Assembly: GCF_003427025.1 (NCBI RefSeq)
Contig: NZ_QVAI01000003.1
Span: 372,001-436,000 of the forward strand
Length of the DNA: 64,000 nucleotides
Direction: 5' to 3'
Source: Jiangella endophytica
GTDB lineage: Bacteria > Actinomycetota > Actinomycetes > Jiangellales > Jiangellaceae
Positions within the stretch are counted from its first letter, which is position 1, and each line of letters starts with the position of its first letter. Under the pieces are notes generated by a model, which was given only the letters and a program-made list of their open reading frames with translations, did no database searches and was not told the origin of the DNA. Of the stretch, positions 41,683-43,110 are shown piece by piece. Position numbers and translations under genes: made by a program.

Positions 41683-42894
41683 TCACCAGAGGTCGGCGGA
41701 GTGGGTGGAGACGTGGGCCGCGAGGCGGGCGATCGCCTCGGCGGCCGGTAGTGGGTCGAGCCGGCGGCCGTCGCGCAGCCGCAGCGCCACCTCGTCCGCG
41801 GCGGCCTCGCGCGGCCCGACGACCCCGACGTACGGAGCCGGCCGGGCGGCGTTGATGCGGGCGCCGACGCTGTCCTGCTCCGCGCCGGCGACCTCCACTC
41901 GCAGCCCGGCGTCGAGAGCGCGACCGGCCAGAGCGCGCGCGGCCGCGTCCTGGCCGGAGCCGACTGGCACCAGCACGACCTGGACGGGCGCGAGCCACGG
42001 CGGGAACGCGCCTCCGTGCACCTCGATGAGCTGCGCGACCGCCCTCTCCAGGCTGCCGATGATGCTGCGATGGACCATCACCGGCCGGTGCTGCCCACCG
42101 TCGGCGCCGACGTACCCGAGGTCGAACCGGGACGGCTGATGGAAGTCGATCTGGACGGTGGACAGGGTCGACTCGCGGCCCGCGGCGTCGGCGATCTGGA
42201 CGTCGATCTTGGGGCCGTAGAACGCCGCCTCGCCCTCCTCGGCCTCGTACGACACCCCGGATGCGGACAGCGCCTCCCTCAGCAGCGCCGCCGACCGATC
42301 CCACTGCACCGATGAACCCGCGTACTTCCCGCCGGCACCGGGTAGCGACAACCGCAGCCGGGCCGGCCGGATCCCCATGGCGCGATGCGCGTCGCGGATC
42401 AGCTCCAGCGCGGCCGCCGCCTCCTCGGCCGCGGAGTCGACGGCACAGAACACGTGCGCGTCGTTGAGCTGGATCGACCGCACCCGGGTCAGCCCGCCGA
42501 GCACGCCGGACGGCTCGGAGCGGTACATGCCGCCGAGCTCGGCCAGCCGCAGCGGCAGCTCCCGGTACGAACGGCCGCGGGACCGGTAGATCAGCGCGTG
42601 GTGCGGGCAGAGGCTCGGCCGCAGCACGAGCGACTCCCCGCCGACGGGCATCGGCGGGAACATGTCGTCGCGGTAGTGCGACCAGTGGCCGGAGAGCTCG
42701 TACAGCTCGCGTTTCGCCAGCACGGGGGAGTGCACGTGCTGGTAGCCGGCCCGCCCCTCGACGGCGTGGACGTACTGTTCGAGCTCGTGCCGAACGGCGG
42801 CGCCGGCCGGCAGCCAGTAGGGCAGGCCGGCGCCGATGAGCGGGTCGGAGCCGAACAGCTCCAGCTCGCGGCCGAGTTTTCGGTGGTCGTGCAT
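41683..42894 (-). CDS. thrS: Truncated threonyl-tRNA synthetase (catalytic and anticodon domains only)
   Basis: 403 residues against about 640-690 for a full ThrRS. It begins at the class II catalytic core (MHDHRKLGRELELFGSDPLI) and ends with the anticodon-binding domain (PPWLAPVQVVLVPVGSGQDA); the TGS and HxxxH editing domains are absent. Zinc ligands appear kept in SLCPHHALIYR, LNDAHVFC and MVHRSIIGSLER, and motif 2 is YRSEPSGVLGGLTRVRS. The ATG at 42894 has GAGGAG upstream. Probably a second ThrRS, possibly a resistance or regulatory paralogue; a full-length copy should exist elsewhere. A Thr-rich leader ORF lies upstream. Confidence 0.88.
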   Translation of the reverse strand: MHDHRKLGRELELFGSDPLIGAGLPYWLPAGAAVRHELEQYVHAVEGRAGYQHVHSPVLAKRELYELSGHWSHYRDDMFPPMPVGGESLVLRPSLCPHHALIYRSRGRSYRELPLRLAELGGMYRSEPSGVLGGLTRVRSIQLNDAHVFCAVDSAAEEAAAALELIRDAHRAMGIRPARLRLSLPGAGGKYAGSSVQWDRSAALLREALSASGVSYEAEEGEAAFYGPKIDVQIADAAGRESTLSTVQIDFHQPSRFDLGYVGADGGQHRPVMVHRSIIGSLERAVAQLIEVHGGAFPPWLAPVQVVLVPVGSGQDAAARALAGRALDAGLRVEVAGAEQDSVGARINAARPAPYVGVVGPREAAADEVALRLRDGRRLDPLPAAEAIARLAAHVSTHSADLW

Positions 42895-42944
42895 CGTGGT
42901 CTCCTCGGTGAGGGCGAGGCGAGTGACCACACGGCGACGCCGCG

Positions 42945-42958
42945 GGGGCACTCGCCCC
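42945..42958 (-). terminator. Candidate attenuator hairpin before truncated thrS
   Basis: GGGGC and GCCCC (5 bp, loop 4) lie between the leader ORF and thrS. A second hairpin with 6-bp arms (42984-42989 and 42998-43003) overlaps the threonine codons of the leader, as a ribosome-sensed attenuator would need. The stems are short. Confidence 0.35.
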
Positions 42959-42977
42959 GGGCATCGTCGGACAGGAA

Positions 42978-43028
42978 TCAGCGCGCCGGGACGGTCTCCG
43001 GCGTCGTCGTCACATGAGCGCGCTGCAT
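42978..43028 (-). CDS. Threonine-rich leader peptide
   Basis: A 16-residue frame on the minus strand, MQRAHVTTTPETVPAR, ends 83 nt before the thrS start. Threonine makes up 4 of 16 residues (three ACG in a row plus an ACC), matching the substrate of the encoded synthetase, as in classical amino-acid attenuators. No clear ribosome site precedes its ATG, so it may be leaderless. Supported by codon content and position only. Confidence 0.5.
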   Translation of the reverse strand: MQRAHVTTTPETVPAR

Positions 43029-43089
43029 GGCGGTGACGGTAACATCCGGCCGGTGCCGCCCGCGCGGGAGTTTCTGACCCCTGCACCAA

Positions 43090-43110
43090 ATCCTACTGAA
43101 TTGATAGGAT
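43090..43110. promoter_or_regulatory. Operator-like inverted repeat before the flavin reductase gene
   Basis: ATCCTA (43090-43095) and TAGGAT (43105-43110) form a perfect 6-bp dyad with a 9-nt AT-rich spacer, in the gap between thrS and the plus-strand gene at 43142. It includes the 12-mer CCTACTGAATTG shared with 716-727. It resembles MarR/HxlR-type sites. Confidence 0.45.

Follow-up and report, generated by a model that had tools for sequence, protein, structure and literature searches.

What controls a second, shortened threonyl-tRNA synthetase (ThrRS) in an actinobacterium, and what is the role of the short threonine-containing frame ahead of its gene? The question arises at a locus of Jiangella endophytica within the window, by which we mean the whole analyzed stretch of 64,000 nt, where the leader and the synthetase gene thrS2 lie on the minus strand. 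thrS2 (41683..42894, minus strand; ATG at 42894, stop ending at 41683) encodes 403 aa and uses four Thr codons, all ACC. A sequence-only reading had described its product as a truncated ThrRS with catalytic and anticodon domains, and this is borne out by Pfam, which assigns the class II core and the anticodon-binding domain only, and by NCBIfam, in which the match to threonine--tRNA ligase begins at profile position 171 of 565. The TGS domain is absent according to Pfam, and so is the editing domain with its motifs HxxxH and CxxxH. thrS2 scores 415 bits against the threonyl-tRNA synthetase family TIGR00418, where the equivalog cut-off is 384, and its zinc ligands Cys/His/His align with those of solved ThrRS.

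A full-length ThrRS, for which the same reading had advised a search, is also encoded in the genome. It contains TGS and the editing motifs HSTAH and CRGPH, it is 43% identical to thrS2 over their shared part, and no Thr run was found upstream of its gene. Incidentally, thrS2 is nearer to Staphylococcus aureus ThrRS (1nyq, E 2.3e-108) than to Escherichia coli ThrRS (1qf6, E 6.2e-80), which suggests descent from a Firmicutes-type enzyme.

The leader ORF (MQRAHVTTTPETVPAR; 42978..43028, minus strand; ATG at 43028, TGA at 42980-42978) has 16 codons, including three consecutive ACG codons (43002..43010, minus strand), and is separated from thrS2 by 83 nt. Its conservation was examined among relatives. 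All 12 of 12 congeners have the truncated thrS, as do 61 of 394 genomes sampled across the class, and full-length thrS is present as well in all 61. When the regions upstream of 61 loci were read, the leader was found in 59 of 59 assessable loci from many actinobacterial families, two loci having been left out as they lie at contig ends with too little upstream sequence; it was also found in all 12 Jiangella congeners. Both the frame and its Thr codons are thus conserved, and the frame noted in the single sequence stands. Its general form is M(K/Q)RA-x(1-7)-TTTPExVPAR. A search of the 394 genomes with the leader pattern gave one match each in 57, and the reversed pattern gave none.

Another 80 loci were selected by exact pattern match in 80 named genomes (Streptomyces, Kitasatospora, Amycolatopsis, Nocardia, Nocardiopsis, Nonomuraea, Microbispora, Kribbella, Frankia, Jiangella, and others), and a ThrRS lies behind every assessable leader site. 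Two hits, L199 and L213, were discarded as chance pattern matches within other genes. Such conservation rules out a chance origin of the leader as well as a leader unique to the window's genome, and on this comparative evidence the leader is real. One locus, L141 of Streptomyces celluloflavus, has an intact leader and a thrS2 with an in-frame TAA near its start, apparently a pseudogene.

Transcription appears to start at the leader start codon itself. A −10 hexamer, TACCGT (43036..43041, minus strand), lies 13 nt before the leader ATG, and in each of 135 sequences a TAnnnT motif starts 12 or 13 nt ahead of the leader start codon, from which leaderless transcripts are expected. A start inside the leader frame, which the sequence-only reading had named as evidence against a leader peptide, is thereby rejected.

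Further upstream is GAAACT (43069..43074, minus strand), a WblC/WhiB7-like box matching GAAAWY at 5 of 6 positions, 33 nt before the −10 hexamer. A full GAAAWY match is found in 10 of 12 congeners, and in 49 of 135 leaders GAAAWY lies 32–34 nt before the −10, where 0.08 would be expected. This spacing fits the geometry of WblC/WhiB7 promoters, taken here as GAAAWY, 3 nt, −35, 16–19 nt, and TANNNT. The window's genome encodes a WhiB protein (L220; G000:C4:124437) whose C-terminal end, KRPRGRPRK, is an AT hook of the kind typical for WhiB7/WblC. Between the thrS2 leader and a divergent NADPH-dependent FMN reductase gene (43142+) there is also a 21-nt palindrome, ATCCTATCAATTCAGTAGGAT (43089-43109), with similar sites in congeners L005, L007, L009, and L010 but none in the other congeners examined. 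It was set aside as a thrS2 element because it goes with the flavin reductase gene, of which it is probably the operator.

How could such a leader act on the gene behind it? The transcript contains several segments, all on the minus strand, that can pair in mutually alternative ways. Segment 0 (AGCGCGC, 43018..43024) is complementary to the last part of the leader ORF (GCGCGCU), a pairing that would explain the conserved M(K/Q)RA...AR-stop pattern. In the distant relatives L205, L207, L208, L211, and L212, segment 0 stems have different sequences and are still complementary. The 5′ side of hairpin 1 is segment 1 (CGCCGG, 42998..43003), which reaches into the third Thr codon. Segment 2 (GTCCCGGCGCGC, 42981..42992) can pair with segments 0 and 1 or, as an antiterminator, with segment 3. 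Segments 3 and 4 make up hairpin 2 (42945..42960), and the sequence of its loop, segment A (GGCGAGTG), allows pairing with segment B (GGTCACTCGCC, 42918..42928). Segment B can alternatively pair with the Shine-Dalgarno region, segment C (CGAGGAGACCAC, 42896..42907), which contains GAGGAG.

These pairings were assessed in 70 leaders aligned with MAFFT. Segment 1 and hairpin 1 as a whole are invariant. Hairpin 2 covaries, with 26 double-change cells, and so does the A:B helix, with 33; in neither case did any of 500 shuffles score as high, a count that overstates independence because the sequences are related. For A:B, 92% of cells are paired, compared with 32–53% for slid versions. When duplex energies with own and exchanged partners were compared, z was −11.6 for A:B and −10.7 for B:C. 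On the MAFFT alignment B:C pairing was not above shuffles, though the duplex test supports it, and in L079 and L150 the three parts are altered together (CAAGTG, CACTTGC, CAAGGAG). No covariation is seen in the antiterminator pairs of segments 2 and 3, since there is almost no variation on either side.

The covariation between the hairpin 2 loop and segment B points to a second, translational switch. The leader could instead be a transcriptional attenuator only, with loop:segment B pairing serving some other role such as mRNA stability, and we regard this as possible but rather doubtful. Hairpin 2 is terminator-like, its stem covaries, and clear U-tracts follow it in Kribbella, Allokutzneria, and others, as expected of such an attenuator. 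Yet segment B is transcribed only past the terminator, A:B nevertheless covaries strongly, and segment B is complementary to the Shine-Dalgarno region too.

Many of the hairpins have no clear U-tract, and the stem is 5 bp in the window versus up to 14 bp or more in relatives. Termination may therefore be weak in Jiangella endophytica, where A:B dominates the predicted fold in most states. Of the two hairpins that the sequence-only reading had drawn, the one over the threonine codons is hairpin 1, which includes the third ACG, and the one between leader and gene exists as well, but only as this 5-bp stem.

If the leader is translated, the position of the ribosome should decide between the pairings. 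If a ribosome is taken to cover 12 nt beginning with the codon in its A site, then, judging from sequence positions, it would hide most of segment 1 and leave segment 2 free while reading any of the three ACG codons, which would no longer be so at the next codon. In nascent RNA extending up to the loop, the computed mean pairing probability of segments 2 and 3 over the 70 leaders is 1.00 with a ribosome at the Thr codons, 0.11 with none, and 0.00 with a ribosome at the stop codon. A trp-like antiterminator is thus predicted in 70 of 70 nascent leaders when the ribosome is on the Thr codons. The suggestion that ribosome-mediated attenuation senses threonyl-tRNA here holds up well. Given time to equilibrate, most full-length leaders are predicted to fold into hairpin 2 even when a stalled ribosome is present, and antitermination would thus need to act kinetically.

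Alternatively, the ACG run might be fixed purely as an RNA fold or binding site, translation of the frame being irrelevant. The nucleotides around the Thr codons are strongly conserved, the third ACG is within hairpin 1, and in some variants, such as L052 and L055, the tail past TTTP is out of frame and its peptide lost, with the hairpin still present. On the other hand, the Thr run persists in L205, L207, L208, L211, and L212 despite quite different flanking stems (the leader of L205, ACGACGACGACCACC, has five Thr codons), and the start codon and its spacing from the −10 are retained in all 135 sequences. Moreover, the synthetase ORF avoids exactly the codon that the leader uses, as described below. 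We consider a purely structural leader very improbable.

Codon usage separates the leader from the gene that follows. Among the leader Thr codons of the 59 loci that were identified solely through the protein, 175 of 177 are ACG; the count in the 80 pattern-found loci was set aside, being biased because the search pattern forces codons 2 and 3. In 130 thrS2 ORFs, by contrast, the Thr codons are ACC 1128, ACT 25, ACG 8, and ACA 2, so that ACG makes up 8 of 1163 and 124 ORFs lack it altogether. Thr accounts for 2.2% of residues in these ORFs versus 7.0% in 231 neighboring ORFs, in which the ACG share of Thr codons is 35%. Full-length ThrRS genes without the leader, nearly all from the same genomes, have ACG at 18% of Thr codons in the homologous part and at 22% in the whole gene.

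Two genomes provide a further comparison. In G377 (L198/L287) and G684 (L288), a leader of the same design precedes the sole ThrRS, which is full length, and jointly these two genes have ACG at 0 of 41 Thr codons, all being ACC. At a rate of 22%, the chance of this is about 3e-5.

General codon optimization of a highly expressed gene might be thought to account for ACG avoidance, since C-ending codons tend to be favored when a high-GC gene is strongly expressed. However, other G-ending codons are at background in thrS2 ORFs (GCG 0.39, CCG 0.59, GTG 0.43), and the two leader-bearing full-length genes, which equally lack ACG, use GCG normally, so that we give this explanation hardly any credence.

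The window's genome has one tRNA-Thr gene each for the anticodons CGU, UGU, and GGU. Under standard wobble rules, the GGU species reads ACC and ACU, not ACG. The synthetase ORF, poor in Thr and nearly free of ACG, could therefore be translated with tRNA-Thr(GGU) while the CGU and UGU tRNAs are uncharged. We find it reasonably probable that the attenuator is partitioned by isoacceptor: the leader would sample only ACG-reading tRNA-Thr, ACG and much of the Thr would have been selected out of thrS2, and switch and output would use different tRNA-Thr species. The partition appears to move with the leader, because it is also seen where the leader precedes a sole full-length ThrRS.

How, then, is thrS2 controlled? 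We put the probability that the leader is a ribosome-mediated attenuator gating a backup threonyl-tRNA synthetase at roughly 80%. The simplest account would be a trp-type attenuator that senses the charging of ACG-reading tRNA-Thr and releases a ThrRS gene translatable without that tRNA. A WblC/WhiB7-type promoter would give a leaderless mRNA beginning at the ATG of the leader peptide. With ACG-reading threonyl-tRNA plentiful, the ribosome would reach the stop codon and cover segment 2, and hairpin 2 would form, so that termination, together with the pairing of segment B to the Shine-Dalgarno region, would hold expression down. When that tRNA is short, the ribosome would stall on the ACG codons and cover segment 1, allowing segments 2 and 3 to pair and thereby opening hairpin 2, whose loop could then pair with segment B and free the Shine-Dalgarno sequence. 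The shortened enzyme might in this way serve as an inducible backup under translation stress. No expression data on threonine starvation were found.

Such a backup could also protect against a ThrRS-targeting antibiotic such as borrelidin, as the sequence-only reading had proposed. A second, structurally different ThrRS induced upon a fall in Thr-tRNA would raise tolerance, and in E. coli borrelidin resistance goes along with elevated ThrRS levels (PMC4389257). Nonetheless, at the residue tied to borrelidin resistance (L489 in E. coli) both ThrRS of the genome have Gln, many genera carry the gene, and around thrS2 in the window no biosynthetic cluster was noticed. Specific support for that proposal is thus missing, and we consider it improbable. 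A better-founded version is the WblC/WhiB7 link to translation-targeting antibiotics: thrS2 of Streptomyces coelicolor is listed among WblC-activated genes (PMC7157823), and 49 of the 135 leaders share with that regulon a GAAAWY at the right distance from the −10. Neither the attenuator nor the codon partition was encountered in that account of the regulon. The WblC/WhiB7 antibiotic response would thereby be linked to amino-acid-specific gating of an editing-free synthetase.

The sequence-only reading knew of no such leader for an actinobacterial ThrRS, a statement superseded by thrL of Streptomyces lividans TK24, a leader (MKRVRPFLETTPGFVPAR) upstream of thrS (SLIV_19410) with a leaderless start by RNA-seq (PMC8079986). 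thrL resembles the present leaders in being a short leaderless leader peptide with Thr codons and in its MKR...TTP...VPAR pattern. It is one table row for one species, with two Thr and with termination called unclear, and the comparative, structural, and codon analyses given here are absent from that report. With thrL reported and S. coelicolor thrS2 listed as a WblC target, the leader itself is not new. What is new is the antiterminator prediction, the covariation of the second switch, the codon partition, and the leader on a sole full-length ThrRS. Neither the loop:segment B switch nor the codon partition turned up in the open-access literature as far as it was covered, and absence there is weak evidence.

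Leaders of Streptomyces synthetase genes are otherwise known for leuS and trpS (PMC1262725, in which no threonine element was found) and for alaS, thrS, trpS, and leuS (PMC8079986). The finding belongs with these and extends the single thrL entry. The S. lividans genes with leader peptides alaS, thrS, and trpS (PMC8079986, Table 4) share names with the WblC-activated alaS2, thrS2, and trpS listed for S. coelicolor (PMC7157823, Table 1), with gating by the cognate amino acid a possibility for each.

A second ThrRS induced when tRNA-Thr is uncharged also has a counterpart among the known systems. In Firmicutes, thrS and thrZ are under T-box control, by which a second ThrRS is induced when tRNA-Thr is uncharged; here sensing would proceed through a translated leader instead. 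When the window was scanned with Rfam at gathering thresholds, no family matched, the T-box included, and scanning four loci by E-value brought up nothing of relevance.

With trp- and thr-type attenuators, pheST, and the Streptomyces leuS and trpS leaders (PMC1262725), the present system has in common leader codons for the sensed amino acid, the 1:2, 2:3, and 3:4 pairings, and, behind them, a synthetase gene. To these it adds the covarying pairing of the loop with the Shine-Dalgarno side. The E. coli thr leader contains eight ACC (PMC1183508), whereas ACG is used here. Codon preference in attenuation leaders is explained by the selective-charging theory (Elf et al. 2003, discussed in PMC1183508), and ACG in the leader is the kind of codon choice that this theory predicts. 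Because leader and controlled gene use nearly disjoint codon sets for one amino acid over a broad actinobacterial range, selective charging can be put to a direct test in organisms other than E. coli, using three tRNA-Thr genes and a single codon swap.
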